NCBI GenBank assembly: GCA_020809705.1
Contig: CP085825.1
Location: 6,758,001 to 6,822,000, forward strand
From: Calonectria ilicicola
Lineage: Eukaryota > Ascomycota > Sordariomycetes > Hypocreales > Nectriaceae
Reading direction: 5' to 3'
Length of the DNA: 64,000 nt
Part shown: positions 13,512-43,458 of the stretch, in pieces
How positions within the stretch are numbered: position 1 is the first letter of the stretch
How the letters are laid out: the number at the start of each line of letters is the position of its first letter
Program-made: the position numbers and the translations under genes
The notes under the pieces: model-generated
Told to the model about the DNA's origin: nothing
Seen by the model: only the letters and a program-made list of their open reading frames with translations
Databases searched by the model: none

Positions 13512-13609
13512 TTTTGGCGATCTTTGGGTCAATTGCTAGAAGAAAGAAGAAATTGAAAGATGCTGATCAACAAATTCAAATTCACTAGACTAAAATTCTA
13601 TCCGCATCC

Positions 13610-15910: not shown

Positions 15911-18017
15911 ATGGGCTTTCCTCAAAGCATATCGGAAGCAAAGACCCATATCTCTGATATTCGACTTGAAAAAGGGTTGGGAAGATCGGGGGCAAATACC
16001 ACCGATCTAGATGCGGCCTTGGTTATGTGAGTTGCCAAACTGGTGACATATTTATTTTCTTATGGTTTGATTAGCCTTTCCGAGCAGCTATACCAGAAAT
16101 CAACACACTTCCTTCTAGAACTACTTCAGAATGCGGATGACAACATCTACGGAGACAACCTCTGTCCAACTCTTCAAATAATTTATCAAAACGGGCGGCT
16201 GCAAATATCATGCAATGAAATTGGGTTCCAACGGGAAAATGTAGAAGCTATCTGCCGCATTGGCCGTAGCACAAAAGGCTATGCTAATAGCAGCACCCAG
16301 TACATCGGGGAAAAAGGTATAGGCTTCAAGTCAGTATTTAAAGTCGCTAATGTGGTATGGATTGATTCGGGCTTTTATTCTTTCAAGTTTGATAAAAGAA
16401 GGGAACTTGGTATGATTGCTCCAATTTGGGCGACGTTTCCAGGTTTCCGTCGAGAAGGTTTTACATCTGTGCTACTGGACATGGTGCCGGATCAGGATCA
16501 TTCTGGTCTTCTCCAGGAACTCAAATCCATAGACTCAAGGCTTCTTCTTTTTCTAAGAAAGTTAAAGAGAGTTGAGATTTCAATTGAGGAAGCCGGTAAT
16601 CCGCCATGGCATGCTAATCTAAGTCGCGATGACCACCATAATTTAAAAGGGGATAATCCCCAGTGGGTTCATTTACGCCAAGATGACAATTACTCCAGAT
16701 TTATTATGACCCGTTATACAATTGATGACATGCCGATTGAATCAAAGCGACCAGGGCATTCTAATTCAGAAATTTTGATGGCATTTCCTGTTTCTGAAAA
16801 TGGCTTCCCCCAAATATCTCCCCATCACGTATTTGCATTTCTTCCTATACGAGACTATGGTTTCAGGGTAACAAAACCTTCTTATAGCCTCTTTCACAGC
16901 TAACTTTGATATAGTTTTTACTCCATGCGGACTTTCTCTTGATTGCCAGTCGCGAAGACATAGATATGTCCTCGACATGGAATGCACACTTGCGAAACGC
17001 AGTGCCCATGGCTACCTTGCAAGCCGTACAACTCCTGAAAGAAACAGAACTGAGATATTCCTGGCCACGATATCTACAACACAGGGGCACGATGGTCGAT
17101 TTCTTCGAGGATTTAGAAAATAGGACTATTGAGCTATTGTCGTCTAGTCCCATTTTGGAATCGATAAAACGAGAATTCACTATTCCCAAGACGTTGACTA
17201 TCGTAACATCAGACCACATGGACAACACTGGTACACCATTGACTGTGACTCTGCAAACTAAATCACGATATTTATGTTCGGATTACAGCCGTGAGGACTG
17301 GGGGTTTCTTCAAAAGCTTGGCGTTGGGAAAATGGATGACAACCAATTTTTGGAAGATTTACAACTTTGTTTCTCAGATCCTGATTTCCCTAAACAGAAA
17401 TCCTTGCAATGGCACTCAAGTCTAGCTCAGAGGCTCACTACTATCTTGACAAGGGACATATCAAGAATGGAAACAATCCGCGGATTGCATCTAATTCCGC
17501 TCTCGAATGGTCAATGGATAAACGCACGGGTCTCAAATATTTTCTTCCCAGGCGCTAGTGAGCCCTTTGCTATACCTCGTGGGACAGAAGTCTCCGAAGT
17601 TCACTTGGACGCTAGCACAGACCTACACCGTCAGAACCTTCTTGCGCTTCTTGGTGTCCAGCAATTTAGCACTACAAAAATTTGTCGTATTATAGCACAA
17701 TCGCACTCTCGCGATTCCTGTCTAAACTTACCTAGTCCAGAGGATATCCTCCAGCAAGTTCTTTTTCTCTTTCACTCAAATTGGACTGATAAAACGTCAG
17801 GACAATTGTGGTTTATTAATGAAGATAGGTCATACGAACGAGGCAGTCAGCTGTACACCCGCACCGCTGCAACCATACTAACTCAGAAGGCTTTCGCTGA
17901 ACTTGAAGGCATCGTCTCATTTCTGCACCCTGATTATGAAAACCAGCTACATCCAACACTACACAACAGCTGGTCCGAATGGGTAGCCAGCTCGCAAAAC
18001 GCGAGTCGAATGATTCC

Positions 18018-18023
18018 TTTTTT
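18018..18023 (+). other. Frameshift in a T6 run of the ATPase gene
   Basis: Before the run the frame reads ASRMIP. After it the conserved series LSNEFKHLIEKWPP lies one frame away. One extra T would join them without loss. It is either a real 1-nt deletion or a homopolymer sequencing error. Confidence 0.7.
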
Positions 18024-18563
18024 CTATCAAATGAGTTTAAACACTTGATAGAAAAATGGCCTCCCACTGATATTTTATGTCTTCTGAAATCATATTGGTC
18101 ATACTACAAGGTATGGATGAAACCAAAATATGGCATCGAAAATTCCTCGACGTGGGATCGACACCGAAGGGAATTAGTACGCAACTTCTCGGCGATGAAG
18201 GTGGATTGTCGCCATAATTATACCGCACTCCTTCAAGACGCAGTGCTTCCGCCACAACAAAGACTAGATCATGTTTCCTTAGACCTTCAAATTCCTATCT
18301 TGGATCTTCCCTGGCAGGGAGGGGACCATGAATGGAACTTCCTCAAAATCTTTGGTGTTGAAAGAATTGATCCGGTGGGGCTCTTGATAAAGAACCTCAA
18401 ATATATTAAAGAGTTTACAACCACCCTTAGCGCAGATTCTATGTCTCAAACATATAGAAATTTCCTGCCCTATATAGATAATGAGATTGCGGTCGCAAGG
18501 TTAAGGTATTTTCCCTTCGCTTCACTGAAATATTATCATCTTCTTAGGATTTTTCCATCTAAT

Positions 18564-18806
18564 TGTCACAGGCTGATGCCTAGTAAGGGGTTACGGCTGT
18601 GCCGTACCCGAAGCTACTAGTGAAACAGGTGAAACCCGGAATACAACTCTTCCGCAATACTGTCATTTCCTACAGAACTAGAATCTGACTATATAGCTAG
18701 TGTAGCAGCCCTTCAGGCTGCTCTCTTCCTTCCTTTCTCTTTAGTCTTAGATAGACCAATACAGAGCACCCTTCAGGTTGAATAAACCCAGGACCAGCCC
18801 TTCACA
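18564..18806 (+). mobile_element. Solo LTR (family B) inside an intron, TSD CTAAT
   Basis: A 243-bp element starts TGTCACAGGCTGATGCC and ends CAGCCCTTCACA, with TG...CA termini. It is flanked by CTAAT at 18559-18563 and 18807-18811. Its ends match the copies at 28,529-28,740, 33,631-33,842 and 38,708-38,918 (the last two inverted). The middle differs, suggesting another subfamily. It lies between donor GTTAAG (18500) and acceptor TTTTAG (18820). The duplicated CTAAT looks like the intron branch site itself. Confidence 0.85.
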
Positions 18807-19136
18807 CTAATGCCTTTTAGATCAGAGTTCGAGAGACATCCCTTGATATTCATTCCAAATACATCCACCAACAGTAATGGGATATGGGTAACGACTGAAA
18901 AGTGTGTTTGGTCAGCGCCACCCTACATTAAAAGAATGCCACAGCTGGTCAAATTCTATCCACAACTTGAAGAACTATTCAGAGAAGTCATTGAGGTTAA
19001 AGAGGTAGATGCTTTTGCAATCTTGAATGAGTTATATGAGATCAAATTGGGAGATTCACTTCAAGACATCTCGCAGCTCTTCGGCGTACTTGGTTTGCAT
19101 CTACGAATTGATCCTGAACCAAGTCTCTTGAATTAT

Positions 19137-19304
19137 TGATACGGTAGGATTATGTCACAAGACGAGGCCAGGGGTAGGCATAATAACTGTATTATGCGAT
19201 GAAGAGGGCAGAAGGCTCTCACTACAGTCGGCTAATATTAACATTGTACGTATGTGTGGTACACACGTGACTCCGCATATGATTATCTGTGTGATTTATG
19301 ATAG
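19137..19304 (+). repeat. LTR family A, left part
   Basis: It matches the copy starting near 25,690 from TGTCACAAGAC up to GTGTGATTTATGATAG, where the other copy reads GTGTGACCTGTGACAG. The differences are C-to-T and G-to-A. Homology ends abruptly at about 19,304, where AT-only sequence begins. Confidence 0.75.
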
Positions 19305-20759
19305 TATTCCCTTTTTTAAATTTGTTTGGTCTTTTAAATTATAATTATTTTCTTTTTAATTTATAATTAGGATATATAATCTATATATTTTGATTTTCTT
19401 AATAATCTTTGCTATTTATTTATTATTTATATTAATTCTTGGTTTATTAAGTAGACTTATTATTTATTTTGTATATCTGGTTTTATTATTATACTTATTA
19501 TATTTTATTTTAGTAAGTTTATTATTTTATTTATTTTAAAGGCTTTATTTTAAGTGCTTGGGATTATATTTTATATTTAAAGTAAAGGGCTTAGTTAATT
19601 TAGGTAATTTTAATAAAATCTTTTTATTAATTTCTTTAATTCTTTTAAATTAATTTTTAATTATTATATAAGTTTATTTTAATATTTTTATTTAATTAAA
19701 TAGATTAGTTTTTTATTATTTTTATTATAAATATTTAAAATATTTTTAAATTTTTATTATTTTTTAATATTTCTTTAATTATCTTATTATATTACTTATT
19801 TTATAATATTTTAATATTTATTTTTATTAATTCTATTTTATTTTAAGATTATAAGTAATTTATAAATATAGATTTTTAATATATAAAAGTTATTATTAAT
19901 CTTTAAATTTAAAAGGAAATTAATAATTACTATTTTTTTATATACTTTTAATATTTTAAATAAACTATTCTATTTATTATTTTATTTCTTTTTTAGCTAA
20001 TTTATTATAATATTTTTTAAACTTATTATTATTAGATTATCTTCTTTAAACTTAAATACCTTTATATAATAAATATTTATATTATTTTTATATTTTTCTT
20101 ATAATTACCTTATTAATACTTAAAATTATATTAAAATCCTTTTAAATTATATTATTATAATATCTACCTTAATATACTCCTATCTTGCTTATTTTATTAG
20201 ATTTAGTAGGCAAGGGGTAGGTAATTTTATTTTAATTTATAGATTAAAATTATAATTAGTAAAAAAAATAATATCCTTATTATCTTATTAATTTAATTAT
20301 TTATAGTAAATTTGGCTAAAGGAAGCTAATTAATTTAATTATCTTAAGTAAAATTAATAAATATATAGAGGTATTTATTTATTATAATATTAATAATTTC
20401 TATTTAACTATCTATTTTTAAATAAAAAGCTAAGTTAATATATAATTTAATCCTTAATTATTTATTAAATTATTTTTAGAATATAAAGATAAATACTAAC
20501 CCTCTATCTAATACTATAAAGTCAGATATATTATATAATTTATAAATATTCTAAATAAAGTATTCTACTAATTTCTCTATATTTAATATAAAAATAAATA
20601 TTAAATATTATATTTCTATTAATTTATTTACTATTATTAAAATATATTAATAAATTTTATTATTTTAAATATATTTTAGTAATTTAATAATATAATTTAT
20701 AAATATATTTATCTATATATAAAGTAATATATTTAATAGTTTAAGGAAATCTAATAATA

Positions 20760-22210
20760 TTTTATATAATATTTTTATTCAATTATAAAGTAAGCATCCT
20801 TTTACAAACTTTATAATAAAGTATAACATCCTAGGCCACTAGTAGTTATAATTTATAAAATCAATTATTTTAATATAGCCTAGATAGCCTACTAGATCTA
20901 ATATATATATTCTATATATTATAGTATAATAAAGGTCAGGGTGGTCTAGTATAAAGATATAATTGCGAAAGTAGATCAAGCTTTTAATAATCTTATATTT
21001 TATTTTATTATATTTTAATTTATTTTATAATTATTTAGGCTATTTTTATATTATTTAATTTTATAATATTTCTATTATTTTTATTATTAATTTATTATAA
21101 TTATATTTTTTATATATAAAATTAATTATAGTAATTTAATTAATATTAATTATTATAAGTATAAGGTATTCTTTATTATTATTATTTTTTATTTATTTAA
21201 ATAGTTCTTTTATTATTATAAGGTTTAATTTCTTTTAAAAGAAGATTATATATTTTTAATCTTAGATATATTTATTATTATTATTTATAGGTTTTATTTT
21301 TAAAAGTTGGCTAAATGTATTTAGAAGTATTATCTTTTTTCTAATTAATATATTATTTAGAAATTAAATTATACTAAGAATTTAAATTATTTAATTTATT
21401 TTTAATTAAATTGTTTTATTATTATAAAAATTTAAAGATTTTTATAATTTATAATAATCTTAAAAGCTATTAGTAAGCCTATTAATTCTAATTATTATTC
21501 TTCTAATACTTTAATAATAACTAAAAATTCTTTATTATAGATTTTATAATTATATTCTATAGTATTATATTTTAAAGAGAAGAATATAATAAAATAAAGC
21601 CTCTTATTCTTATGATATTATAATAATATACCTTCTAATACCTAGTTTAATATATTTATTTCTATTATTATATATTTTTTATAATTATAATAAGTAAGTG
21701 TAAGTGCTTATATAAATTCTTTTTTAATTATTTAAAGTATTTTATTTAAATATTAATTTATTTTTATTTTTTTCCTTTTTTTAATAATTATATTATTAAT
21801 TTAATAATTAAAAAATAATTTTAAATAAATCTTTAATAGAAATTTATAAATTTAAGAAATTATTATAATTATTTAATTAATAAAGGTATTTGCTAGTTAA
21901 TAATAGCTTTAATCTTTTCTAGGTTTATAGTAAGGCTATTAGTAGATATAATAAGGCTAAGGTATTTTATTTTTATTATATAGAACTTAGATTTTTTAAT
22001 ATCAATCTATAGGCCTACTTCTTCTAATCTTTTAATCATTTTGTATATATACTTTATATATTTAGCTCTTATTTTATTATAAATAAATATATTATTTAAA
22101 TAGATTATATAGTATTTATTAAGTATATTATAAAGAATATAATTAATATAATTTTAAAATATTATTAGTATATTATATAGACCGAATGGTATTATTAGTA
22201 TTTTATAAAG
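20760..22210 (-). mobile_element. Ty3/gypsy pol remnant (integrase zinc-binding region and reverse transcriptase)
   Basis: Read on the minus strand with stops ignored, 22,200-21,870 gives IPFGLYN, later RLEEVGL and DIKKSKFY, and then the TKYL-type block of gypsy reverse transcriptases. Further left, 20,990-20,760 gives a DHPDLYYTIIYR...DFINYNY-type block ending in KFVKGC, the H2C2 integrase lead. Integrase lies downstream of RT in the minus direction, the Ty3/gypsy order. Nearly every Gln and Trp codon has become a stop, as RIP would cause. Confidence 0.65.
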
Positions 22211-25200
22211 ATTGAATTAAGTAATAAATATTATTATCTACTTATATCCTTTTATAATCTAGATTTAATTAAATATAATAATAATATTAAGTTTAGTATA
22301 AAATCTTGTATTATAAATAAAGTTAAGTATTTTATAGATTAGAGATAGTAGGTATTTATTTTTAATAATAATTATATTAAGTTTTTAATAATTTTAGTAA
22401 ATATATATTCTATTATTTAGTTTAGTTATTAGAAGTAATAATATAGTAGTAGATAATAATAATTCTTTAATAAAGCCTTTTATAAATATCTTATCTATTT
22501 ATTTTTTAATATATTTAAATTTATTTAATAAAAATAATTAGTTTTTTTAATATAGTGTCTCTTTTTTAAAAATAAGTTTAATTTTATAATTCTAAGGTTT
22601 ATATAATAGAAGGGTATTTATATTTTATTTTAAAAAATACTTTAAAAGATAATAGAACTTTTATAATAATCTTTTTTTAATTTTTTTAATTATAAAATCT
22701 ATTTTAATATTAAGGAACTTATTTATATTAATTTAAATAATCTTTTAGTATAGTATTTTGGATTTTATAGTCTTTTTTAGATTTGTTTGTAAAAAGTTAT
22801 AAAAGTATAGATTAAAGGCTTTATATGCTTCTTTTATTGTATAATCACTTGCTATAATCTATTAGAAGGATTTCTCTTATAATTATAGGACTTCTAGTAA
22901 GCCTTATAGAAGTTTATTAAATATTTATTTAGTTTCTTCTTTTTTAATTAATTATTATAATTTTAATAAATAGATTACTATTACTTTTATTTCTTTTTAT
23001 TTATAAAACTATATAAAATTACTTACTTTAATAATTTAAATATTATATAAATTTAATATAAATATTTGGCTTAATTTATTTTTTATTTTTCTTATTTATA
23101 GGTATTATTTATTTATTCTTAAGTAATATAAGCTTATAAGGAATTAGGCTAGTAATAGATATTTCCTAAGCTTTTTATTTTAGCATTTAGTTGCTCTAGT
23201 CTTTATTAGGTCTATAGTCTAGTCTTTAATAAAAGGTCCGGTTAATTCTGTAAAAGTATTATCTTTATTACTATCTTTAATAAAGGCTTTTTAGTAATTG
23301 TAACTTTGGGTATATGCTATAGTTCCCAGGGGTGTATTATAGCTAGTTTTTAATATTCCTTAAGGTAGATACTTATATAAATAATATCTAGATTTAAAAA
23401 TAAGCTATTTTTATAGCTAATTATAGTCTGGATTATAGTAATTTAGCTATAGTAGACTAAGAATAATTGGGTTGCTTTTTCCTAGGTTTGTAATAAATAT
23501 AAGTAAGATCTTTATATAATTTCTAATATATAATTAAGTAGTAAAATAATATAAGATTATAAATTAGATTATATTATTAATAAGATAAATATATTTTAAT
23601 TTTTTTAATAATTTAATAATTAAATTATATCTTTAGATTACTTTTTTTATTAATAAATATAAATATAATTAAATTATTATTAATTAGATTATTAATTTTA
23701 AAGAAAGTAAATAATATTAGATTATATAGATTAAAAAGATAGATTTTAATAAAAAAAGAGTTTATTATATTAAATAATAAGTAAAGTTTAAGTAAAATAT
23801 TATCTAATAGTATAATTTTAATTAATTTATTTTTATTTTTATATAGTATTAACCCTTAGTTATAATTTAAACTAAGGGTAAGCCTTTTAGCTAATAGTCC
23901 TATATCTTAATTAATTAAGTTAGCTTATTACCTATAATACTAGATATCTTTAAGATTATTTCTTTAATTATATATTCTTATTATATTAGATATACTTATT
24001 ATAAAGGTTATAATAGAGGCTATAATTAAGGCACTATTTGCCAATTTCCTTATTAATTTTAGCTATAAGTTAGCTATAGTTATATATAGTTGTTATTATA
24101 ATTTTAGGTAAAAGCTCCTTGGTTATATATTCTAAAGCCATAGCTATAGCTATAGCCTCAGCCTCAGCCTTAATAGTAGGTCTAATTAATGTGGTTTTGG
24201 TTTATTGGTTGTGGGGGCATAAGAATAGGATTATCTAGTTAGTGGTAATTAGTGGTAATATAGTTAGATCTACTATATATAATATATAGATTAAGATTAA
24301 GTTTTTATTTTTATTTTTAATTAATAATATAGATATAATTAAGGTCTATTAGTTTATTATTCTTTTTATTTGTTAGTTAATTTATTTTAAAATATATAAG
24401 ATATATATTCTAATTATTAAATTTATTAATATACTCTTTTTATTATAAATTTCTTATAATTTTATTTATTATTTTATTTTATAATTTATAATTATTAATT
24501 ATTAAAAGCTTAATTTAAGAATTAATAATTATTATAATTTCTTTATTAATATATTTTTATAAATAATTAACTTTAATTTAATTATTAATTTAAGCTTTAT
24601 TTATATAATAATTAAAATTAGCCTTAAAGTTTCTATATATATAATCCTTTTAGTATAAAGTATTAAAAGTATTTTTAATACTTTAGATTAAGTTAAGGAG
24701 AATATATTAACTATTTAATATATTTAATAATATATCTATTATCTATTATTCCTATATAATAAACTATATAAGATTTATATTTATCTTTTTAATACTATCT
24801 TAAATACTATTTTATACTTATTTTCCAAGTTAGTTTATTATAAATATAAGTTTTTTAATTAATATTAGAAAGTATTTAATATTTATTATAAATATAAATT
24901 AGATTTATATTTTCTATTATTTATAAACTACTTAATATTTTTCTATCTTCTATTCTTTAACTATAAACTTTTTTAAGTTTATTATTATATATCTTAATTA
25001 TTAAAAGCCTTAGGTAAGGTCCTAATTAATTATTCTTAGCTAGGTTTTAAGTTAGGTAATTTTTTTATTTAAAGCTATATTTTAGATATTAGTTTGTTTA
25101 AATATTTTATTAGTTTTAGTAATAGTATTAATCTATATAATAATTATTATTTATAAATTCTGGTTTTCTTTTTATATTTAAGTAAGATTATTATATTAAG

Positions 25201-25689
25201 CTGAAAATCTAGTTTTAATATTTATAAATAATGCCTAGAATATTATATAATTAATTATATAATAATTATTATTATTTAATAATATTAAAAGATATTTTAA
25301 TAAAAATAATAAATTATTCTTATTAATAAATATATAGCCTTCTATTATCTTTACTATAATTAGCTAATTTATATATAAGATATCTTTAATCTAGCTATTA
25401 AATATATCTAGAATTCTAAGGTTTATATAACTACTAGCCAATATTATAATATTAACTTTACTTATCTTAATATAAATATTCTTTCTTAATAATACTTAAA
25501 TTAATTATTACTTATACTTAAAATAATCTAATACTATCTTATTTATAAAATTAAAGGATTTTTAATTAATTTTTATAAAAATCTTTATTATTATTAGATT
25601 ATAATAATATAATTTAAGCTTTTCTTAATTTAATAATATTTTCTATTTTAAATAACTATAATAAAACACAATTAAATAATCACACAAAC

Positions 25690-25992
25690 TATCACAAGAC
25701 AAGGCCAGGGGTAGGCATAATAACTATGTTGTGCGATGAAGAGGGCAGAAGGCTCTCACTACGGTCGGCTAATATTAACATTGTACGTATGTGTGGTACA
25801 CACGTGACTCCGCACATGACTACCTGTGTGACCTGTGACAGATTAGAACAGTAGGGGTCTTAATGATATATAGTAGGAAGGTTAATGTCTTCTTCTCTAT
25901 CTACTCTAGTAATAGGCTTATATATGTTTTCCAAGGGTGCCTAAGGTATATATTTATAGGGTTTTATATATATTAATATTATTTCTGTATTA
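25690..25992 (+). repeat. LTR family A, uninterrupted copy
   Basis: This copy contains both the sequence found at the left edge of the nest (AAGGCCAGGGGTAGGCATAA) and that at its right edge (CAAGGGTGCCTAAGG ... ATTTCTGTATTA). That shows the outer edges are parts of the same repeat. Its first 170 bp keep normal base composition while its right half is mutated. The exact left end could not be placed. Confidence 0.65.
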
Positions 25993-27079
25993 TATTTTGG
26001 TATATTTAAGAAATTATTTATTATTTTTAATAATTAGAATATTATATATACTTTCTTATTTTAAATCTTTATATTTTATATAATCTTTTCTTTTAATTTG
26101 CTTAAATAGTAATCTTATTTTTAAGAGATTGCCTTTTAGGTCTTTTTATAGGGGGATCTAGGCTAGATCTTGGATTGATAATTAATAGGGGAGTTTTGTG
26201 TGATTGCTTTGGTTGTTACTTAAAAGGATCTAGGCTTATATTGTCTTTCTATTAATCTAGCTTAGGATATTTATAAAGTCTTTTAGATTATTATTTTAGT
26301 AGTAAGATAGTTCTATTTTTTAATGATTTTTTTAAGTTAGGAGTAATAATAGGGGCTTTAGTTTATTTTTTATTATAATCTTAAAGTTATTAAGCTAATT
26401 AAAGGATATTATTTTTAGGAGCTTATTAATATTAAAATTCTATAATTAGATCTAGATTAATATTCTTTGCCTAGATCTATATGGTCTAGTAATATTTATA
26501 ATCTTTCTAGTTTATTTAATATCTTTTTATAATTATTAGATTATATCTATTAATATACTAGTTTTTCTAGCTAAAGATCTTATTTATCTTATATTAATTA
26601 GCTCTATTATTTTTAAGAATTAGTCTAGATTCCTTTAGTTAGAAGTTATTAGTATGGGCTAGTATAAGCTATTAATATAAGATTATTAAATATATCTTTA
26701 TATTACTTAGTAGATCTAGCTTATATACTAGATTATTAACCATTCTCTTAATTATAAATAGGCCTAATTACTACTATAATTATTTATATAGTAGCTTATT
26801 TAGTAAATAATATTTATAATATAATTATAAGTAAACCTTATTATTAATCTTAAGTTAAATTAATTAATACTTAATATTATATTATCTTTTTACTTTAGCT
26901 ATTATAAAATCTATAATTAATTATACTTCCTTCTAAATAGCTTCTTTTAAAAATAATAGATCTATATTTTTTATTATTAATTATACTAACTTTATTAAGC
27001 TTTAAAGAGTAATCCTATAAATAAATTTATATATAAAGGCTTTAATTATAATATTAAATACTTTATTTAGATTTTATTA

Positions 27080-27330
27080 TAATATAAATAAAATATATAA
27101 CCAATCTTTTATTAGATACTTTATATAATAAAAGTATATTACTATTTTAATTATTTAATTATATCTTTCTATTAATCTATTAGCCTATAGGTAATATATT
27201 ATTATTATTATTATCTTTATTTTAAAACTTATTTATAAATCTCTTTAAAATTTTAAATTAAATTTACTATTATAATCTAAAATAATAATTTTTAATATAT
27301 TTTAATTAAAGAGTATAAACTATTAGGCTA
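27080..27330 (-). mobile_element. Integrase-core remnant
   Basis: Minus-strand reading with stops ignored gives an SKFNLKF-type block, then HPQANGLIERYNQ in degraded form (..YYL.ANRLIERYN.), then DWLYI. This is the distal integrase core of an LTR retrotransposon. It lies too far from the 20.8-22.2 kb pol remnant to belong to the same element in that order, so a further element is present. Confidence 0.5.
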
Positions 27331-28528
27331 ATATAGTTGCTTACTTTTTACCTATATATTTAATAAATCCTAGAATTAATAAATATCTTTTACTTACTAT
27401 ATAAGTAATTATTATTAATTAATTATAGATATTTTATTCTTCTAATACTTATAATAATCCTTTTATTAATATTAATAAGAGTTTAATAATAAAATCTATT
27501 ATTATTATATATATAGGTAGGACTGGAGATCTATTTAATAAGTAATTTCTAATAGTTTATTAGTAATTAATTTACTTAAGGTAATATATTTTATATTTAT
27601 AAATATACTTTTTAATCTATTATATTAAGTTTTTAATATAAAGATTAAATAGCTTTTTTAATATTCTTTTCTTATTAAAATAATATTAATTATTATAGGC
27701 TATCTCTAGGAATTTATTAATTATAAAGTAAAAGATATAAAGCCTATAATATTTAAATTAGCTATAATAATATAGAAATTTTTTATATAATTTAAAATAT
27801 ACTTTATACTTTAAAATATTTATAATATTTTTATTATTAAATATTAAAAGATTTAAGATCTCTTTCTTTATTATTATATTAATAATCTTTATATAATATA
27901 TATTATTAAAATATCCTTCTTAAAACTTTCTCTTAGATTTCTCTATTATTAAAGCTTCTATTACCATTAGTATATTATCTAGGACTATATAATTAGATTA
28001 TAGTTATACTTAATTCCTATTAGTCTTTAGGGCTATTAAGTAGTTTAATATATTTAAAATAAAGTTCTTTTCTTTTAAAAGGTAGTATATATTAAGTTTA
28101 TATTTTAATAAGTAAATTAAAGTAATTATTAATTTATAGTTTATTTGGTTTATATTAGATATAGTAAGTATAATTTTCTTTATAATTTATTTTATTATAA
28201 AGTGGTTTATAAAGGTAATTATTAGATATATTAATAATTAAATATATATATATAATCTTTTAATTACTTATACTAAATATACTACCTTTAGTTCTAATAG
28301 GCTATAGTTTTTTTTATTAAGCTAAGAGTGTAATTTAGAAAGTAAATAGATTTTATTATTATTACTAAAATATATAATATTTTATTTTATTTATAATTAT
28401 CCTTAAAATAGAAAAGTATTACTTTAAAGTCTTATTAAATACTTATATTTACTTAAAAATATAGTTTTTTACTTTATTTAAGGTAAAAGAGTATTTTTAT
28501 ATTAGCTACTTTATATTAGATTATTTTA

Positions 28529-28740
28529 TGTCACAGGCTGAAGCCTGGCAGAGGATTACGGCTATGCCGTATCCACCTAGATTAAGCTTCATGACTATGT
28601 TGGTAGCGAGGGCACACCAAGGCATATATAATCAGAAGAACACGTTCTTCTGATCGTCTTCTTCTCCTTCCTCCTTAGCTTTAGACAGACCAATACAGAG
28701 CACCCTTCAGGTTGAATAAACCCAGGACCAGCCCTTCACA
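28529..28740 (+). mobile_element. Solo LTR (family B), TSD TTTTA
   Basis: A 212-bp element with TG...CA ends (TGTCACAGGCTGAAGCC ... CAGCCCTTCACA), flanked by TTTTA at 28524-28528 and 28741-28745. Base composition is normal although both flanks are AT-only. It either arrived after the flanks were mutated or was too short to be targeted. Confidence 0.9.
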
Positions 28741-31700: not shown

Positions 31701-33630
31701 ATTAGAATTTATAATAGGTATATAATCTTATAATTAATAAGTAAAAAGATTATTTTAAAAATCTCTTTATTTACTTATATTTTAGCTTATTTAATAAGCT
31801 TAACTTTATATTATATTTAAAGAGAAAGAAATATATTTTATTAGATAGAGTTAAGTATATATTTCTTAATTATATACTCTTCTAATAAATCTAACTCCTA
31901 AGGCTTAAATTGCTTTATAAGATCTTAATAAAAGTAAAAAATAGAGCCTTTTATAATCTTAGCTTGCTTTTTATTATTAAACTCCCTATTAGCTATTTAT
32001 AAGCTATACCCTAAAGTATTATAAGATAGTATTTTTAAAAAGAATCTTTATTAAATTATTTAAAGGTTTTAAGGTATATATAAAAGAGATTAATATTAAT
32101 ATAAAGTTATTTACCTTATATAATAATAAATCCTTACTTCCTAAGATTCTTAAAATCTAGGTTAAAGATTTTAATAGTATTATGCTTAATTTGTCTTCTA
32201 TCTGCCTAACTATTTATTAAGAGTGGTATATAAGATTAAATATACTATAATAAATTAAGGCTTATATTTAAAGAGTCTAATAAACTAAAAAAGAGTGATA
32301 AATTGTTTGGATAATTATTACTATTATATTTAGTTTATAGCTATATTAATTTGTGGTAGTATTTGCTTAAATAGGCTAAGGTTTGTAATCTTCTACTACT
32401 AGAGGTATCTAGGCTAAAATGTATTAAGCTTCCCCCTTAAGTTAATTAGATTAATTGGGTAGAGTAGCTAGCCTCCCTTAGGCTAGAGGGGTTATCTTGT
32501 TATTTAGGTTCTTGCTTGTTTATAAAGATTAGGTTTTTTAGAATAGGTAAATTAGATGTAGTAATATTTATAGATATATTATTAGGCTATAGTATTTTAT
32601 TAAAAGAGATTATAAGAAATCTAGAGAAGTTTAAGAATATAATATATTTAATAGCTTTTTATCTCCAAACTGCTAAAGTATTTAGATATTAAGTCTTAGC
32701 TTAAGGTATATTAGTTAAAATAATGGTATTTTAATAGCCTTATTTAATAGTATTATTTATATAATCTTTTATTTATTAAGTAAAGATAATATTTTAAAAA
32801 TAAACTTATTAAAAGTTTTTATTAATTATTTCTTAAATATTAATTTATTATAATAAACTTTCTATCTTATAATTCTTCTTATTTTCTCTTTATCTAAGAA
32901 TTAATCTTTATATTATTTATTAGATTCTATAATAAATACCTTTTAATTAATAATTTTAGCTTTTTAGGGCTCTAGCTAGAGCTAGGGGTATTATCCTCTA
33001 TAAATTCTACCTTTTTATCCCTATCTTTTTTAAGGATTAGGTTTATTAAAAAGGATCTTTTTTCTTTTAGAAAGATATAGGCTTTATTAAGGCTAAGGTT
33101 AAGGTAATAGGTCTTATTATATTATTATAAGCTTATTTAATAATAGAGGAGTAGTAATATAAGAAGGTATTTATTTTAAATAAGTTAAAATAATAATTAT
33201 AAAATATAAAATAATATTAATTAGTAAGAATATAGATCTATAATTAAATTATTATAATTTTTATAAAAGTTAAATAATTTATTATAATAAAGATAATATT
33301 AATAATTTTAAATCTTATTTTTATAATAAAGAAATACTTTTTATAATTTTATAAAATAACTTAAGATTATTTTATAATCTTTAATAATTAATATTTTCTT
33401 TAAATTATATAAATAATTAAATAAAGTATTTTTTATATAAAAAAAGATTTTAAAAAAGATTTTAAAAATAGATTTATAAGAATTATTATAAATATTTTTC
33501 TTATTAATTAATTAATAAATAATCTAATAATATATTATATTAAAATATAATTTAAAATTATTTAATATAATTATTTAAAATAATATTATAATACTAATCT
33601 TAAAAAGAAATAATTACTACCATATAATAC

Positions 33631-36600
33631 TATAAAGGGCTAGTCCTGGGTTTATTTAACCTAAAGGGTGCTCTATATTGGTCTATCTAAAGCTAAGAAG
33701 GAAGAAGAAGAAGATAATTAGAAGAATATATTCTTTTAATTATATATATTTTAATATACCCTTATTACTAATATAATTATAAAGCTTAATTTAAATAGAT
33801 ATAGTATAATTATAATCCTTTGTTAGGCTTTAGTTTATAATATTATTCTCTCTCTCTTCTAAGTAATAACTTTATTACTTTAATATTATATACTTGCTTA
33901 TTAGGCTATCTGATTCTATAATTAGCTTATAGGTAGCTTTATATATATCTAGAGCTTCTAGCTCTATTAAGAACTCTATTAGTTATTAAGTAAATTCTTT
34001 ATAGCTATACTATTAAATAAGAGTTTCTTAGATTTTATTTTATTTTTATTACTTCTACCTAATATATAGGATTTTTTTAATTATTTACTTATCTTTATTA
34101 TTTATTTAAATTAGTAAAGGCTAGAAGTTATTTTATTATTATTCTAGTAAGGGATCTTGCTATATTCTTTTTAAAAGATTAATGTGGAATTGTAGGTATA
34201 TTGCCCTAGGTATATTAACCTTTATTATATATATACTTATTATCTTTATTATAATATATTATTAATATAGCCAATTTAGCTTCTTATAAGGTCTAGGGGA
34301 CTTATAGTTGGTTAAATTAACCTAGACCTTATCTCCAACCTTAAACCTCTCCACTAATATCTACTTCTTATTTATTATCTATTTATAATACTATTATATT
34401 ATAATTATTATAATTTATATAAATTCTATAGCATCTTAAATCTTCTATAATAGATTCCTAGCCTAAGCCTTATTATTACTTAATAATAACTCTATAATAA
34501 TCTCTTAGACTTTAAAAGGCTTTATATAGTACCTATACTTTAAGAAGAAAGGACTTATCCTTATAGCTAAGTTCTTATAGTTGTTTAGTATTAATTATAT
34601 TACTAGAAGATAATAACCTTAATCCTTTTACAAATAGTAAATATATACTTATAGGTATATTTAGATTTCCTAGTTTATTTATTCTAGCCTTCTATTAATC
34701 TATAAGTAGTATACTATATTAAGCTATTATATAATATTAATTAGCTTATAGAAGGTTTACTAGAACCTATTAATTTAATTACTTTCTTAATTATTAATAA
34801 TAAACTAAGGTATTCTATATAATCTATAATAGTAGTTAAGAAATTATTTTATATAAGCTTTTACTTTTATTATAAATATAACCTTAAATATAATAGCTTA
34901 TATAAATTAATTAATTATTATTTATAAATATTAAGATTTATTCTTGCCTATTAGAGAAAGATCTATTATAAAATCTATAATTAGATTACTCTATAGTTAT
35001 TCTAGAACTAATAAAGGCTTTAATAGCCCTCTCTTTAATTACTATTAAATATAACTTCTTTTATAGATTTAATAATTAATAATAAACTAGTAAACTAATT
35101 ATAATAATCTTAGTTAAAAGAATTACTTTAATACTAAGGCTATTATACTATTATAGCCTAGATAACCTTTAATAATAATATTATACTTTATCTATATAAT
35201 ATAAGTATATAATATCTTTATATTAATCTTATTATTAAATATCTATAATTAATCTTAAAAAATTAATTAATTTTTAATATTTAAAATATATTTTAAAATC
35301 TAAATCTTTAAATCTAATTTAAATAATAAACTTTACTTTTACTATTATATTATAATATATATACTTATATAAGTCTTATTTATAATAATAACTTAATTCT
35401 ATAAATCTTATAACTCTAAATAATTAAAGAAAACTACTATCTATAATATCTTTACCTAAGTTATTTAAAAAATAACTTACTTTAGTGTAATTACTCTATT
35501 CTATAGAATAGCTAATTAAAGGATTAATTATAGATAATAGCCTTACTTTTTAAAGTCTTTGATCCCTTTAGGTATATCTTACTCTCTATAGTTTAATATA
35601 TCTAGTATTATTATCTTATTATTAGATTAATATTTAAGTTAGAAATTATATTCTAATAATTATTTTATTTAATAATTTTATTATTTTATAAAATATTAAT
35701 ATTTTATAAAATATATTAAGTTCTTATAATTTATAATAATAGTAAATAGGCTATAATTATATAATTTTATTCTTTAAATATCTAGATAATATATAATTAT
35801 TAATATTTTCTTATTATAGATTAAGTAGTTATATTTTATTAGGCTTAGTTATTATAAGTGAAAGATAATTAGCTAATAATAGCCCTACTTATTTTCTTAA
35901 GCTAGAACTTCTTCTAATATATTATTTAAGTAATTAACTTTAAAAAATATTAATTTATCTAGATCTTATTATTATAATATAAAAGCTTTATAAAATCTAT
36001 ACTTAAGTTTCTAAAAAGCTATTTTTTTATTAAATCTTTATTTAAAAATAATCTCTTTTTAAATTAATATTATTAAGAAAATTAATATTTTTATAAAATC
36101 TAATATAAAGATCTAATAATAATTTATAAAATTTAAAAAAATTTATATACTTTTTATTATTTAAAGTACTTTTTATTTATAAATTACTTATTACTTTTTT
36201 AAATTATAAAATACTTCTTTCCTAATCTATATAATAAATCCTAGATATTTTACTTTTTAAACTATAAACTTATACTTCTTTAAATCTAAATATAATCTAA
36301 TAATAATTAAGATATAAAATACCTTCTATATTTTTACTAAATAATCCTTTTTAAATTACTAAAATAAATTAATATATTATTTAAATAAACTATAATAAAG
36401 TTATTTAAAAAATCTTATAATATCTTATTTATATATCTTTAGAATATAATAAATATATTACTTAGGCCAAATAGGCATACCAGCCACTTATATAGCCCAA
36501 ACCAGATCCAGAAGGCAATCTTAGCCTTATATTCTTTAATCATTCGGACCTTATAGAAGATAGCAACTATATCTAGCTTAATAAATTACTTAGCCTTAGA

Positions 36601-38918
36601 TAGGTTTTATAGTATCTTTGTGATTAAGGAAAGAGGATATTGGTCCTACTATGTAATAGTATTAAATGTATGGTAATTGTAATAAAAGTATAGTCTTTCT
36701 CTAGGCTTCCTAATAAACAATATTAGGGTACTAGTAGTTAAGTTACTAGCTTAAATAAATCCCTTATTTAATAAATCTTTAAAAGTCTTTTTAAGAACTA
36801 GTAATTCCTTTCTAGATATATTATATAGAGGTTTCTAAGGGAGTGGTAGTTTATTCTTGAACTTATCTTATTATAGGTTAATCTTATAATTAATGCTTGG
36901 TTGATATAGTAGTAATTTAACTATTTTTATTATTAAAAATAATTTTTTAAATTTATTAAATAATATAATTAAAATTTATTTTTTAAATCTTTCTTAATCT
37001 TTTATTAAAAAGCTTCTTTAATATCTTTTAAATTAATAGATTATATTAATAATATTACTAGATTATATATTCTATATAAGTAGTAATATTTAGCTGTAAA
37101 GGTTGTAGTTGTAATATAATAAGCTGCCTATATTTAATAGACTTTTAGGGTTTCTTCTTTGCTAGTAAGCTATAGCTTGATTCTAGCTATTTTATAGGTA
37201 ATATATTTTTTTACTATATTATAAATAACCTCATTTACCTTTAACTAAGGCTTACTTAAAAATAAATCTTTTTCTAAACCTTTTATAGTATAGGCATATA
37301 GCCTCTACTTATAACCTTTTATCTTAAAAATTAATATTATAACCTTAAAGATATAAGTTCTTTCCTTAAATTTAGTAAAGCTATTAAATTATTATAGCTT
37401 CTTCTTAATATATAGAAAGGCTAGCTAATTAACTAAATCTTTACTTATAAGGGTAAAAGTATTATAATTTATATTAATAAAAGCTTAAATAAATTAATTA
37501 TTAACTCTTATTTTAACTAAAACTAATCTACTAATTATTATAGGCTTTTACTTTATCTACCTTTAAAAATCTTCCTTAAATAATTTTAATATTTAATTTT
37601 ATATTAAAATTTCTTATTTTCTAAATCTTTACCCTTATTAATAAATAAATCTAACTTTATAAAGTTAATATTATTAGCTTACTTAGCTTTCTTTATATAA
37701 GATTGTTAGATTATTAATTAATAAATTGGATAAGAGATCTTTAAGTAATTAAGGCTTTTATAGTTAAAGTAATATTATATATTTTAATCTTGGTTATTAA
37801 TAGATTGTTTATAAGAGATTGGTTTCTTAATAGCTACTTTATCTATTATTAGTATATTATCTTTATAGTTCTTAATTACTTTAAAGATTTAAGAAATATA
37901 ATCTTACCTTTAGCTAGTAGTAGGTTCCTTTTTCTCTAGCTTCTTAAGTTTCTCTAGCTTCTAAGCTATATCCTATACTTAAACTAATTAATTTATATAA
38001 TTATATAATAGATCTATTATAATTAAATTATATTATAATTATAAATTTAATATATCTTTTAAAAAAATAATCTTAGCTTAATTAGTTTATTAAGAATCTC
38101 CTATATTTATTATAATTTACTTAAATTTAAATAAAAAGCTTATAAGAGAGATATTCTTATCTTATTAAAAGGTTTATAAAAATACTATTATATATAATTA
38201 TAAATTAATATTTTTATATATATAATCTAAATAATATATAAAATCTATAAGATTATAATAACCTCTAGATCCTTTAATAGTATAAAAGATAGCTACTATC
38301 TTCTAAAATCTTATTATTAAATATAATTATATTAAATATTTATAATAATTACTTAAAAACTTTAATAAATTTAAAAATAGCTTTTACTTTAAAAAAGATT
38401 ATTAAAAAATATTAATATTTAATCTAATTAAATCTAATAACTCTACCTTAATTAAAACTTTTAAACTTTTCTTAAAACATTCTTATAATAATATTAATCT
38501 CTTTATTATATTACCTTATTAAGCTCTTAATTATATAATTTACTTTTAAATTAAAATTAAAATTATATTTAATTTCTATTATATAAACTATATTAATTAC
38601 TATTAAATTATTTTATTTAATACTAAATTACTAAATCCTTAATCTATTATTATACTTATAAATATCTTAATTAATAATTTATATTAAAATTAATTAAATT
38701 TTAAATATATAAAAAATTAATCCTAAATTTATTTAACTTAAAAAATACTCTATATTAATCTATCTAAAACTAAAAAAAAGAAAAAGAAAATAATCAAAAG
38801 AACATATTCTTCTAATTATATATACTTTAGTATGCCCTCACTACCAACATAATCATAAAGCTTAATCTAGGTGGATACGGCATAGCCGTAATCCTCTGCC
38901 AGGCTTCAGCCTGTGACA
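33631..38918 (-). mobile_element. Full-length inverted Ty3/gypsy element (family B), TSD AATAC
   Basis: LTRs lie at 33,631-33,842 (212 bp) and 38,708-38,918 (211 bp). Both are inverted copies of the solo LTR at 28,529 once C-to-T and G-to-A changes are allowed. AATAC flanks the element at 33626-33630 and 38919-38923. Minus-strand reading gives reverse-transcriptase blocks at about 36,610-36,150 (LDIVAIFYKVRM, FGLYKWLVCLFGL, then YLNNILIY) and an integrase-core trace at about 34,800-34,600, in Ty3/gypsy order. The element is 5,288 bp and has no surviving open frame. The last 90 bp of the right LTR are hardly mutated. Confidence 0.85.
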
Positions 38919-38923
38919 AATAC

Positions 38924-39080
38924 AATAAAATTAAAATAATAAAGATCTTAATAATATATAATAAAAAGATTAATATCTTCTTCTCTATCTACCCTAGTAA
39001 CAGGCTTATATATGCCTTCCAAGGGTGCCTAAGGCACACACTTACAGGGTTCCATATGTGTTGACACCATTTCCGTATCA
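38924..39080 (+). repeat. LTR family A, right part
   Basis: It matches 25,830-25,992. The section just after the inverted element differs only by C-to-T and G-to-A changes (AATTAAAATAATAA for GATTAGAACAGTAG). The last 90 bases are nearly unmutated and end CCGTATCA at the host junction. Confidence 0.75.
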
Positions 39081-39414
39081 ATTATATCAAGCAAATATTG
39101 AAAAGGAAAATCTTTCCTATAGAGGAGACGAAAGGAAATGGTGATTTTCAGTTTCTAAAAACTGCAAACGACCATGATATATGGTTTATTGCTGACCGTC
39201 CACATCTACGAGAGTCCTTCGTCAAGAACATTCCACTTCTCGCTTTGAGTGTTGATACTATCGCTAGAATGCAAACTCTCATTGACCAGATACCCCAGCT
39301 TAATGTACGATTGCTCTCAAAGATAGCGCAAGGAACCCCTTCAGTCGAAGGTAGTACTCGGCTTCACAATGATTACACACTGAGGCTGAGACAAAAAGCC
39401 AAGTTTATTGCCAG

Positions 39415-39927
39415 GTGAGTTCCTTCGAAGAAAAAAAATCAATTTATGTTTCTATCACTAGCTATAGAGGCCACAGGGTTACATTTGGAAGCTCTTGTCT
39501 TGTCAATTGAAGGGTCTATCTAGGTCTCTTATAGCTGCTGTTGTGACCAGCTGTTCCGGTCGGCCGAGGGGAGTTTCTTTTAGGTTGAGGCTATCCAAAG
39601 CTAGCTACGGTGACCACCGCATACGGATGTTGCTTGCAGCCGCGTTGGGATAGGTCTGTAGTAGCTAGATCCTTCATCTAGGCATTTATCCTGATTTGTA
39701 TGACTATTTGGGGCCGGTTGCGGCAAGAGCTATCTAGCTGTTACTATAAGTACTGGACTGTGCCGTCGAGGGCATCGAGGCTTTGTAGTCAAGGTCCGGC
39801 CGGGCCCTAAGAGGCCCGGCTGCTAGGCTAGGCTGTTGAGACCATCTTGTGAGTGTGACAGTTTCCTTATCCTATTAAATTAATTAATAAATTGATGTTT
39901 GCAATCCTCTAACCCCAAAAACAACAG
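39415..39927 (+). other. Oversized intron holding a GC-richer insert
   Basis: The exon phase on both sides requires this 513-nt interval to be spliced (GTGAGT ... ACAACAG). All other introns of the gene are 48-83 nt, apart from the one holding the solo LTR. The segment 39,480-39,860 is richer in G and C than its flanks (for example GGTCGGCCGAGGGG and CGGCCGGGCCC) and is probably a small mobile element. I found no clear termini or target duplication. Confidence 0.45.
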
Positions 39928-41337
39928 TATTGTTCCAACAGAAGGGCCTGTTAACCGAGAAGAGGTCATAAAGAAGCTGAGAATAATCGAAGTATTTGAG
40001 GCAGAACAAGTGAACGTGAAATGGACAGTTAAACTATCCAATGGTGAACTGATCAATGGCAGAGCTGAAGCTGGCCGTGTTAAGTTAACGTCCCAATCTG
40101 AGTCATTAACTGTTTACTTGACCGAAGCTGATATCAATCACATGGTTATGCCTATCGAATTGGGTGAAGAGTTATGCAAATATTGCGGTATTACCGGTGC
40201 AATCGAAGGTGTCCTATTACAACAAATTCTCACTTCGTTCGACGATGTGGTATTAAGAGACATCGTGGAGCGACGTGGCCTCATTGTTGAAGAGTTTGAG
40301 GGAGATTTGGACCCAGCTCACTTTTGTATGTCATACTAAGTTAACATTCCAAACATCAGCAAAGAATCGTGTCAATTAAAGCTAATTCATATCAAAACAG
40401 TTACCAGAACATCAAAATCAATTGTGCCCGATGAAAAGCCCCGGTTAAAGCAAATCAAAGAAGATGGGACACAGCCAAAACAGAACGCAGAGGCCGGCCA
40501 ACTCATGTCCTTCCTTCAAAATGTTGAGGCGGCGAATTCGATAAAGACAATACTTTCTAAAAGTTGGGGACAACATCATCGGCGACAATTAAACCCTATG
40601 ATATCTCGCATATGCAGGCTTGAAAGACAGAATTTCTCAATTCTACTGCCTCTGACCGATTCCGAGCGACTCGATCGTCCGGGTACCGTCCCATACGACC
40701 TCCCTAATCAGTGGATCTTTACCAGACCAGATAAATTCATTGATGGAGAAATTCAACAATCGCTGGAAATTTATCCAGCCATTTGCTATTTATCGAATAG
40801 GGGTGAATTCATCCAAAAGTGTAAGACTGGAGGCTCTAAAATGAATCAAGAAGCCAATTTCCTAGCAGAGTTGATGGTAAGTAATTCTTGTCAAATTGAA
40901 TATAGTTTCATAAATTCTCAGATGCTTACACGTAGATAGATATCGAAGTTATTTGAAAAACACCTGGGTTCATTATACGTCCCAAATAACCACTGGACTA
41001 GCTCTAGGCGGAGCCAGGCAGGCCATATGCCTTACCATCCCATGGACTCCGATTCTACACCATCTTCATTCACTATGGAAAACAGTGAACGTTTCCGAAG
41101 ACTTCTATCTTTATGTGGCTATAAGAATGCATCTCATCTTCCAAAAGACTGTTTGTTACATATAGAAGTGGTCACTTCTGAACAGCCATTTTCCACAGGG
41201 TAATTGCAGCTCAGTGGGCCTCAGATGAACAAGGTAGGTTTTTAATCCCGTTGATTACCACACAGAGCGCGAATGTTTTGGAAATGAGTCAATTCGCTAA
41301 ATCGAGCCCGTTTTAGGCCCAATCATATCATGCTGGG

Positions 41338-43458
41338 ATGAAGGTCGAGCAGTTAAAAAATGCTTTCATTCTAATTGCTGTATTCAAAATATGGGAAAAC
41401 CCACAAGCATTCCTCTTTGTTGATCCCTGGAGTCTCGTTACCAAAGGGATCTTACAGATCGAAAACCCGACTTGTTATACCGCTCAATTCCTGGGTAATA
41501 TGCCCAATATCAACCTACTAAACCTAGAGCGGAACGAAAAGGGCACGGTGCGTCGCAGTTTACCAAGTCGTTTAGCAGGAAAACTGCGATCTATCGACCT
41601 TGTTAGTGAGGCATCAAGTTTGTATCGCTACGAACGGTTGAAGGGGCTACGAGATATAAGGCTCTTTAAACTTGAAGAAGGGTCAAAGGAGGAACCTTTA
41701 AGAGCTACTATCTGCCATCTATCTCTCGATTCCGAAATAGAGACCGAGTTTTGTGCGATATCTTATCAATGGGGCGCAGACCTGAAACCTCATGAGATAC
41801 GGACACCAGATGGCAGAATTCCCATAACCAACTCACTGCATCAAGCACTATGTTTTGTTCGGAAGGCTAACCAGCCACTTTTGGTATGGGCAGATGCCAT
41901 TTGCATCAACCAGGACGACAAGTATGAGAAATGTGTTCAAATACGTCTGATGGCACAGATATTCAAGTCTGCAGTTTGCGTCTATGCTTGGATTGGAGAA
42001 GAAGCCCAGAGGAGTAATGAGGTGATGGAAATGCTTGTTCAAATAAGCACTTTAGCCCTGTGTCCCAATCCTTGGCCAGATACGCTAAAGCCCGTTCCAA
42101 AAAGTTGGCGAGAGTACGGCGCTCCACCAAAGGATGATGAGATATGGGATGCCGTCGATGCTATGTTAATGAGGGGTTGGTTTAGGCGTGCCTGGGTCAT
42201 TCAAGAGGTCGTATTTGCGCCGCGGGTTATCCTTTGTTGTGGAGCCTGGAGTGCTAACTTGGATGACATCTTTGGCGCTTTGGATATTTGCATGAAAGCT
42301 GGAAGGTTTGGTGCGAGCCAGAATGTTAGCCGAAATCTCAGCAGCCGCAACGCATATGCTGTCTATATCTTGGGCTCGACTCGGAACTCATTTGCTAACC
42401 CAGTACAAAGGAGAAAATATGACTTGCTCTCTCTCTTTGAGCTTTTCGTTCATACAGAGTCAACAATAAAGCTAGACAAGCTATTCTCACTACTTGCTCT
42501 GGCATCGGATGCTACAGATCAATCTTTCAATCCTGACTATGAGTCATCTGAAGAAGATGTCATTCGCAGATTTGCGAGCACCTTCATAGCTCGTGGCGCA
42601 ACACCACGGCTATTACAACGAGCGGGTATTGGGAGATCATACCGCTTCTGCTCTTGGATTCCCGAATGGACCAAGAAGCAGGCTATCGGTACAATATCTG
42701 ATTGGTGTGGTTCCAAGGGACGATTTTCAGCGTCGGCGGGGGCCAGCTTGGATTGCGGTGTTCTGCCTGGCCACGACAGCAAACAGTTGCGCATAAAAGG
42801 GACAGCTGTAGATGTTATCAAAAGCGTGGGGTCCATTACACTGCAACACCACGACGCTATTACCTACATCAACTCCCTCAGAGAATCCATTGGGGCTTTA
42901 AACTCTTACCCCACCGGTGAGAGCATCGAAGATTTACGGTTTTCTCTTCCCATCGGCAGCACTAATCGCCCACATCTTGATGCTAAAAACGACTTAGTTT
43001 CCTATGTTGATTTTCTCAATACCCTAGAAGGAGATAGTACTGGATCTGAGGAGCAAGGGGGAGTGGATCAAATGGGAAGTTACGATGATGATGACAATTT
43101 CGATATTAAAAACACCCTTCCTAACATTTCCTCTATCGGCGAGATGATGGAATTCCTCAAGGAACCATCATCAGTCCGTGATAGAACCTGGAAATACTGG
43201 CATACTGCAGTGTCTTTTGCCAAACGCCTTTCCTGTGGGCGCTTTTGCGTAACGGAACGTGGTTATGCCGGAATTGTGCCTCCTACTGCTCGGCCTGGGC
43301 AACATATTGCTATTTTGAATGGTTTATCAGTGCCTTCGGTGCTTAAATTTGACGGATATAATTATATTTTGGTTGGTGAGTGCTATATACATGGAATCAT
43401 GTATGGGGAGGCTGCTTTTTTGAGTCAGCTTAAACAAACGGATTTTATACTTGTATAG
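41338..43458 (+). CDS. Surviving HET-domain ORF (706 codons) of the fusion gene
   Basis: Open from the ATG at 41338. Residues 1-50 are the tail of the DUF3883-like domain (LKNAFILIAVFKIWE, then LFVDPW), not a typical HET start, so this ATG is internal to the older fusion gene. The HET domain covers about residues 100-290: YERLKGLRDIRLF, AISYQWG (141-146), LLVWADAICINQDD (181-194), VYAWIG (215-220) and RGWFRRAWVIQE. The C-terminal half holds an acidic DDDD stretch and a closing ERGYAGIVPPTARPG ... LVGECYIHGIMYGEA block that is standard for HET proteins. It could still be expressed as a free HET effector if transcription starts after the stop at 41201. It is preserved better than the upstream parts. 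Confidence 0.85.
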   Translation: MKVEQLKNAFILIAVFKIWENPQAFLFVDPWSLVTKGILQIENPTCYTAQFLGNMPNINLLNLERNEKGTVRRSLPSRLAGKLRSIDLVSEASSLYRYERLKGLRDIRLFKLEEGSKEEPLRATICHLSLDSEIETEFCAISYQWGADLKPHEIRTPDGRIPITNSLHQALCFVRKANQPLLVWADAICINQDDKYEKCVQIRLMAQIFKSAVCVYAWIGEEAQRSNEVMEMLVQISTLALCPNPWPDTLKPVPKSWREYGAPPKDDEIWDAVDAMLMRGWFRRAWVIQEVVFAPRVILCCGAWSANLDDIFGALDICMKAGRFGASQNVSRNLSSRNAYAVYILGSTRNSFANPVQRRKYDLLSLFELFVHTESTIKLDKLFSLLALASDATDQSFNPDYESSEEDVIRRFASTFIARGATPRLLQRAGIGRSYRFCSWIPEWTKKQAIGTISDWCGSKGRFSASAGASLDCGVLPGHDSKQLRIKGTAVDVIKSVGSITLQHHDAITYINSLRESIGALNSYPTGESIEDLRFSLPIGSTNRPHLDAKNDLVSYVDFLNTLEGDSTGSEEQGGVDQMGSYDDDDNFDIKNTLPNISSIGEMMEFLKEPSSVRDRTWKYWHTAVSFAKRLSCGRFCVTERGYAGIVPPTARPGQHIAILNGLSVPSVLKFDGYNYILVGECYIHGIMYGEAAFLSQLKQTDFILV

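Follow-up and report, generated by a model that had tools for sequence, protein, structure and literature searches.

The window analysed here is a stretch of 64,000 nucleotides from contig CP085825.1 of the fungus Calonectria ilicicola (positions 6,758,001 to 6,822,000 of the forward strand). Within it, from 15911 to 43458, lie the broken parts of a gene that joined an Hsp90/sacsin-type (GHKL) ATPase, a long middle region, a NOV_C/DUF3883-like domain and a HET domain. A first-pass annotation of this DNA had read these parts as one ancestral fusion gene. They and the repeats among them are arranged as follows (positions are those of the window; LTR, long terminal repeat; RIP, repeat-induced point mutation; ORF, open reading frame; L027 and L028, paralogous loci described below).

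15911..16026, plus strand: putative exon 1, starting with ATG; donor GTGAGT at 16027; position and phase 2 match the L027 and L028 models
16075..16867, plus strand: exon 2, Hsp90/sacsin-type (GHKL) ATPase domain, from Pfam SACS, PADLOC TmtA and identity to paralogues
16915..18620, plus strand: exon 3 region, TmtA-like middle, broken; 3' end approximate (ORFs 16915-18048 and 17940-18620)
18563..18810, no strand assigned: solo-LTR-like repeat where exons 3 and 4 meet, from repeat comparison with the genome
18786..19136, plus strand: left piece of exon 4, which the insert interrupts; 5' end approximate (ORF 18786-19139)
19137..39080, no strand assigned: nested, RIP-degraded LTR retrotransposons inside exon 4, from the target duplication ATTAT and a drop in GC content
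19153..25840, no strand assigned: inner LTR element near the left end of the outer one (LTR pair 19155-19304 / 25692-25841)
39086..39415, plus strand: right part of exon 4, from alignment with L027
39450..39860, no strand assigned: 410-bp repeat within the intron after exon 4, from its genome copies
39929..40875, plus strand: exon 5 (acceptor inferred), with an in-frame TAA at 40337 (ORFs 39896-40339 and 40340-40939, one frame)
40940..41239, plus strand: exon 6, with the first part of the NOV_C/DUF3883-like domain (IEVV motif, 41162-41173) and an in-frame TAA at 41201
41317..43458, plus strand: exon 7, NOV_C-like tail (VDPW) and complete HET domain in one open frame of 713 aa

Exon 2 encodes the motifs NADDN and GEKGIGFKS, from which an ATPase had been called, and that call was borne out by both Pfam SACS (2.9e-11; 44.1 bits against a cut-off of 32.8) and the NCBIfam sacsin ATP-binding model NF047352 (5.1e-17; 62.1 bits against a cut-off of 50). 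Our fungal comparison set was one genome, that of C. ilicicola itself (69.9 Mb, 12 contigs). When the window ATPase was aligned with five paralogues from this genome (41-48% identity to four of them and 30% to the fifth, L032), residues E15, N19, D22, G78, G81 and G83 were invariant; the patterns E..N..D and GxxGxG are the GHKL catalytic and ATP-lid motifs. The nearest solved structures by sequence are the sacsin and Hsp90 N-domains. At the other end of the gene, the frame at 41317-43458 carries LFVDPW near its start and a HET domain (Pfam HET 2e-27, 96.8 bits against a cut-off of 22.5) that spans residues 145-297 and covers the profile from 1 to 146 of 146. The claim that a DUF3883-like tail and a complete HET domain share one unbroken frame therefore holds.

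A search of the genome with the window ATPase exon gave eight matches at seven loci, the window included. The three best non-self loci of the HET exon (E 5e-68, 1e-58 and 3e-50; the next, 4.5e-35) lie downstream of three of these ATPase loci, at a distance of about 5 kb, and the order ATPase-HET is found in four of the seven (the window, L027, L028 and L029). Two of the four are open from ATG to stop as spliced models: L027, on contig C4, with 2165 aa in seven exons, and L028, on C7, with 2256 aa in six. They have five introns in common, with identical phases; their splice joins were chosen by a simple splice score and alignment, some of them not being the top-scoring ones. Pfam HET is found in both, and SACS scores 45.5 bits in exon 2 of L028, above the cut-off, and 31.6 bits in L027, just below it. 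The full L027 model contains no NACHT or NB-ARC domain, the Pfam matches at E values up to 1 being HET, SACS, HATPase_c and DUF5339. The third paralogue, L029 (C6:3485501-3495000), keeps this order but is broken: its frame changes near 1719-1734, next to an A-run, and a stop codon lies in frame at 7187. The remaining loci, L030 (C10), L031 (C11) and L032 (C3), carry the ATPase and end in a NOV_C-like region, and no HET was found in the 9.5 kb covered at each of them.

One objection to this picture is that two ordinary adjacent genes, a NOV-type ATPase and a HET gene, only look fused. Such a reading could draw on the state of the window copy, broken by 20 kb and by stops, and on the existence of the three ATPase loci that lack HET. 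However, the NOV_C-like tail and HET lie within a single exon in the window, L027 and L028, the joins are GT-AG and the full-length models are open. In addition, the HETs of the four fused loci form one clade among 19 HETs (support 97/97, in a tree with long branches). We regard the adjacent-genes reading as close to refuted and scarcely credible. Since two open paralogues and one broken one keep the order, a single ancestral ATPase - NOV_C-like - HET gene is indicated, as first proposed; the fusion is real, and it recurs within the genome. The nine exons of the first-pass annotation did not stand, the open paralogues having seven and six.

The window copy itself is a thoroughly inactivated pseudogene. 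Its ATPase half (15911-19136) and its NOV_C-like and HET half (39086-43458) are separated by an insert of 19.9 kb. The pieces flanking this insert align collinearly with the L027 and L028 models in tblastn: L028 residues 919-988 to window 18885-19097, and L027 residues 969-1079 to 39110-39442. At its borders the insert resembles an LTR retrotransposon (TGATACGG...CCGTATCA), and a 5-bp sequence, ATTAT, is duplicated at 19132-19136 and 39081-39085. Because the left frame stops and the right frame resumes at codon borders flanking this duplication, the insertion must have split an exon. Base composition differs sharply between the insert (GC 16.5%, TA/AT 1.27, (CA+TG)/(AC+GT) 0.34) and its gene flanks (TA/AT 0.73-0.75, (CA+TG)/(AC+GT) 1.33-1.34). 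The right end of the insert (38919-39080) occurs at at least 40 other places in the genome, and the inner element at 19153-25840 has LTRs that are 92% alike and a target duplication, GATTA. Elsewhere in the gene, the exon 3 region changes frame at a point between about 17973 and 18023, a stretch that includes a T-run (18018-18023), the tblastn match to L027 and L028 being carried on in the second frame from 17997 and 18006, respectively, and both TAA codons, at 40337 and 41201, are premature. The single lost base to which the damage had been ascribed is therefore an understatement, given this frame change, two stops, the solo-LTR-like and intron repeats and the exon insert. The fusion reading survives, although its reasoning passed over the 19.9-kb insert and missed how thoroughly the gene has been inactivated. 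If the lesions of L029 are not assembly errors, two of the four fused copies would be dead, which is consistent with birth and death.

Two further features of the repeats can be recorded here. A 141-nt inverted repeat (89%; 28529-28669 / 38778-38918) lies in the AT-rich block and points to another nested element of about 10 kb. The 410-bp intron repeat recurs in 26 further near-full-length copies (91-100% identity; core TATCACTAGCTATAGAGGCC...GTGAGTGTGACA) and is free of AT-decay, although the genome holds RIP-like blocks; it is probably a recently mobile short element.

As the 2.1-kb last exon is still open and its HET domain complete, the HET half (41317-43458) might now work as a separate HET gene. 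We consider this highly unlikely: two stops lie in the preceding exons, and a recent break would equally have left the frame open.

The NOV_C-like tail in exon 7 aligns to the unfused L030 (E 0.001) and L031 (E 0.005). Against Pfam NOV_C (PF13020), the unfused L032 reaches 21.1 bits (cut-off 22.1) and L030 an E value of 0.27; no match was obtained in L031, L027, L028 or the two window pieces (the scan covered all of these loci except L029), nor in a PF13020 scan of the genome itself. The earlier DUF3883 label is thus upheld by homology to unfused paralogues, and not by a Pfam match in the fused copies, for which it appears weaker than first claimed. Its author also overlooked a loss at the presumptive active site. 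The basic residue of the ExK motif is retained in all three paralogues without HET (IEVK, IEVR and IDVK) and is gone from all four HET-bearing copies (IEVV in the window; FDIA, IQVC and LDLV in the others), so that the nuclease signature lacks its [E/D]xK part in the window gene and its three fused paralogues. D...ExK is present in eight aligned prokaryotic NOV_C domains, and a bacterial NOV_C model resembles PD-(D/E)XK nucleases. This association between ExK loss and the presence of HET is a new observation. Since the residue is kept without HET and lost with it, we propose an effector swap from a NOV_C nuclease to HET, which the sequences suggest.

The same pattern could be read differently, with both outputs in use: NOV_C would bind nucleic acid as a sensor while HET kills, the lost basic residue having turned a cutter into a reader. 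Retention of the NOV_C-like domain in four of four fused copies, despite the ExK loss, and the nuclease-like fold of bacterial NOV_C fit such an arrangement. On the other hand, the NOV_C-like region is very divergent, and we judge this version unlikely. The effector swap remains our preferred account.

Residues 38-706 of L027 match PADLOC TmtA (E 2.5e-76; profile 23-683 of 1302), as do two parts of the window gene, its ATPase exon (4.3e-51) and the exon 3 region at 16915-18014 (1.6e-17). Scanning bacterial and archaeal genomes, we kept 80 loci out of at least 421 relatives, read ORFs in 43 and scanned 30 of these. TmtA was matched in 30 of 30 (E up to 1e-20), SACS in 29, NOV_C in 12 (E up to 0.001) and Pfam HET in none of the 30. 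The first-pass annotation had placed NO VEIN-type ATPase/DUF3883 combinations in bacterial defence loci, and the co-occurrence of NOV_C with the ATPase agrees with this. By profile matching, the fungal ATPase groups with prokaryotic candidate-defence proteins, the defence role of TmtA being a database label. DUF3883 is itself termed a restriction endonuclease (REase) domain, occurring with restriction-modification genes, in PMC3710099.

At 15 of the prokaryotic loci, 69 neighbouring ORFs were catalogued. Five of these loci (L053, L054, L057, L061 and L074) have an ORF of about 1.72 kb whose start lies no more than about 10 nt from the end of the ATPase gene. Four of the five were scanned; the best match was PADLOC RTasNERD-Hel in all four, with helicase/AAA domains in four and Pfam NERD in three. 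These NERD/UvrD-type helicase genes directly follow or slightly overlap the ATPase-NOV_C gene:

L053:12617-14347, L054:12668-14386, L057:12596-14311, L074:5138-6871: NERD/UvrD-type helicase genes adjoining ATPase-NOV_C genes

The pair may constitute a two-gene defence system. Six further neighbours comprised a phage integrase, a UvrD helicase, an LmuB-like protein and three that are housekeeping-like or unknown (IMP dehydrogenase, DUF3352 and hydrogenase/Complex I type). The neighbour scan had no control set.

These comparisons bear on another explanation, in which the ATPase would be simply a folding or developmental factor of the Hsp90/sacsin kind, and HET a tail that is dispensable or regulatory and takes no part in immunity. 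Its model would be plant NO VEIN, a developmental factor; the closest solved structures, sacsin and Hsp90 N-domains, point the same way, as does the absence of HET from three of the six paralogous loci. Nevertheless, all 30 scanned prokaryotic relatives match a defence-database family, the REase label of DUF3883 counts against it, and HET is described as a cell-death domain in PMC10197012 and PMC9815663. We find this explanation improbable. The likeness of HET to TIR is taken from the same sources and was not confirmed by a fold search of HET here.

Taken together, the results place the window gene, as an inactivated copy, in a small fungal family of about 2,200-residue proteins (ATPase, middle region, NOV_C-like domain and HET); that these proteins act as immune switches is probable, though well short of certain. 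In the mechanism we envisage, which takes up the sensor and death-effector roles proposed in the first-pass annotation, the N-terminal ATPase of NO VEIN/TmtA type and the long middle region would respond to a non-self or damage cue by sensing it, and ATP-driven closure of the clamp would bring HET domains together, leading to cell death. The ancestral output may have been nucleic-acid cleavage by NOV_C, a domain of PD-(D/E)XK nuclease ancestry; in HET-bearing copies the output would pass to HET and the NOV_C site decay. That the window copy was lost to an inserted retrotransposon, to stops and to a frame change would fit a birth-and-death immune repertoire. More tentatively, and at somewhat less than even confidence, the family may represent non-NLR (NOD-like receptor) fungal immune receptors, in which a prokaryote-type sacsin/NO VEIN ATPase is retained and HET replaces the NOV_C nuclease, the site decaying wherever HET is present. 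If true, a HET receptor that is gated by an ATPase and has its ancestry in prokaryotic defence would provide a concrete switch for testing, for which the open genes L027 and L028 are available, and would link fungal cell death by descent to bacterial defence; the loss of ExK with HET, and its retention without, would be a visible case of effector swap.

Outside the gene, the window contains a second, distant HET gene (3495-6122, minus strand; open frame of 876 aa) whose HET falls outside the clade of the fused copies, and a sugar-transporter-like gene at 11731-13535 on the minus strand, with overlapping antisense ORFs, its translation judged by eye. The HET repertoire of the genome is large: at least 150 places among 372 candidates exceed the Pfam cut-off, all 150 scored having passed. 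HET genes number more than 100 in some fungi, often without a clearly assigned architecture (PMC10197012).

By keyword, we found no description of an ATPase-NOV_C-HET architecture among the open-access papers listed, and no open-access paper pairing TmtA with anti-phage or NO VEIN with heterokaryon incompatibility. Several known systems nevertheless share part of the design. Plant NO VEIN, of the Pfam NOV_C family, combines an Hsp90-like ATPase with NOV_C as the fungal fusion does; it is not known to have a HET domain. In the fungal HET-NACHT-WD40 NLRs (HET-E, HET-D and HET-R), an NTPase switch is likewise joined to a HET death domain, but the ATPase is of STAND/NACHT type, HET is N-terminal and WD40 repeats are the sensor (PMC10197012 and PMC12881547), whereas the fusion has a GHKL ATPase and a C-terminal HET and lacks a recognised repeat sensor. 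In animals, sacsin-like proteins that carry DEATH or TRADD-N also unite a sacsin-type and a death-signalling domain in one fusion, although the death domain is a different one and the lineage is animal (PMC3710099 and PMC8195603). The PADLOC TmtA proteins, prokaryotic candidate defence ATPases that include ATPase-NOV_C proteins such as L053, have the same N-terminal Hsp90/sacsin-type ATPase and about 650 following residues, with NOV_C in 12 of 30; they differ in lacking Pfam HET (0 of 30), in keeping D...ExK in NOV_C (eight aligned) and in having a NERD-UvrD-type helicase gene downstream (four tested). By descent, on this comparison, the fungal protein is a TmtA/NO VEIN-type ATPase to which HET has been added.
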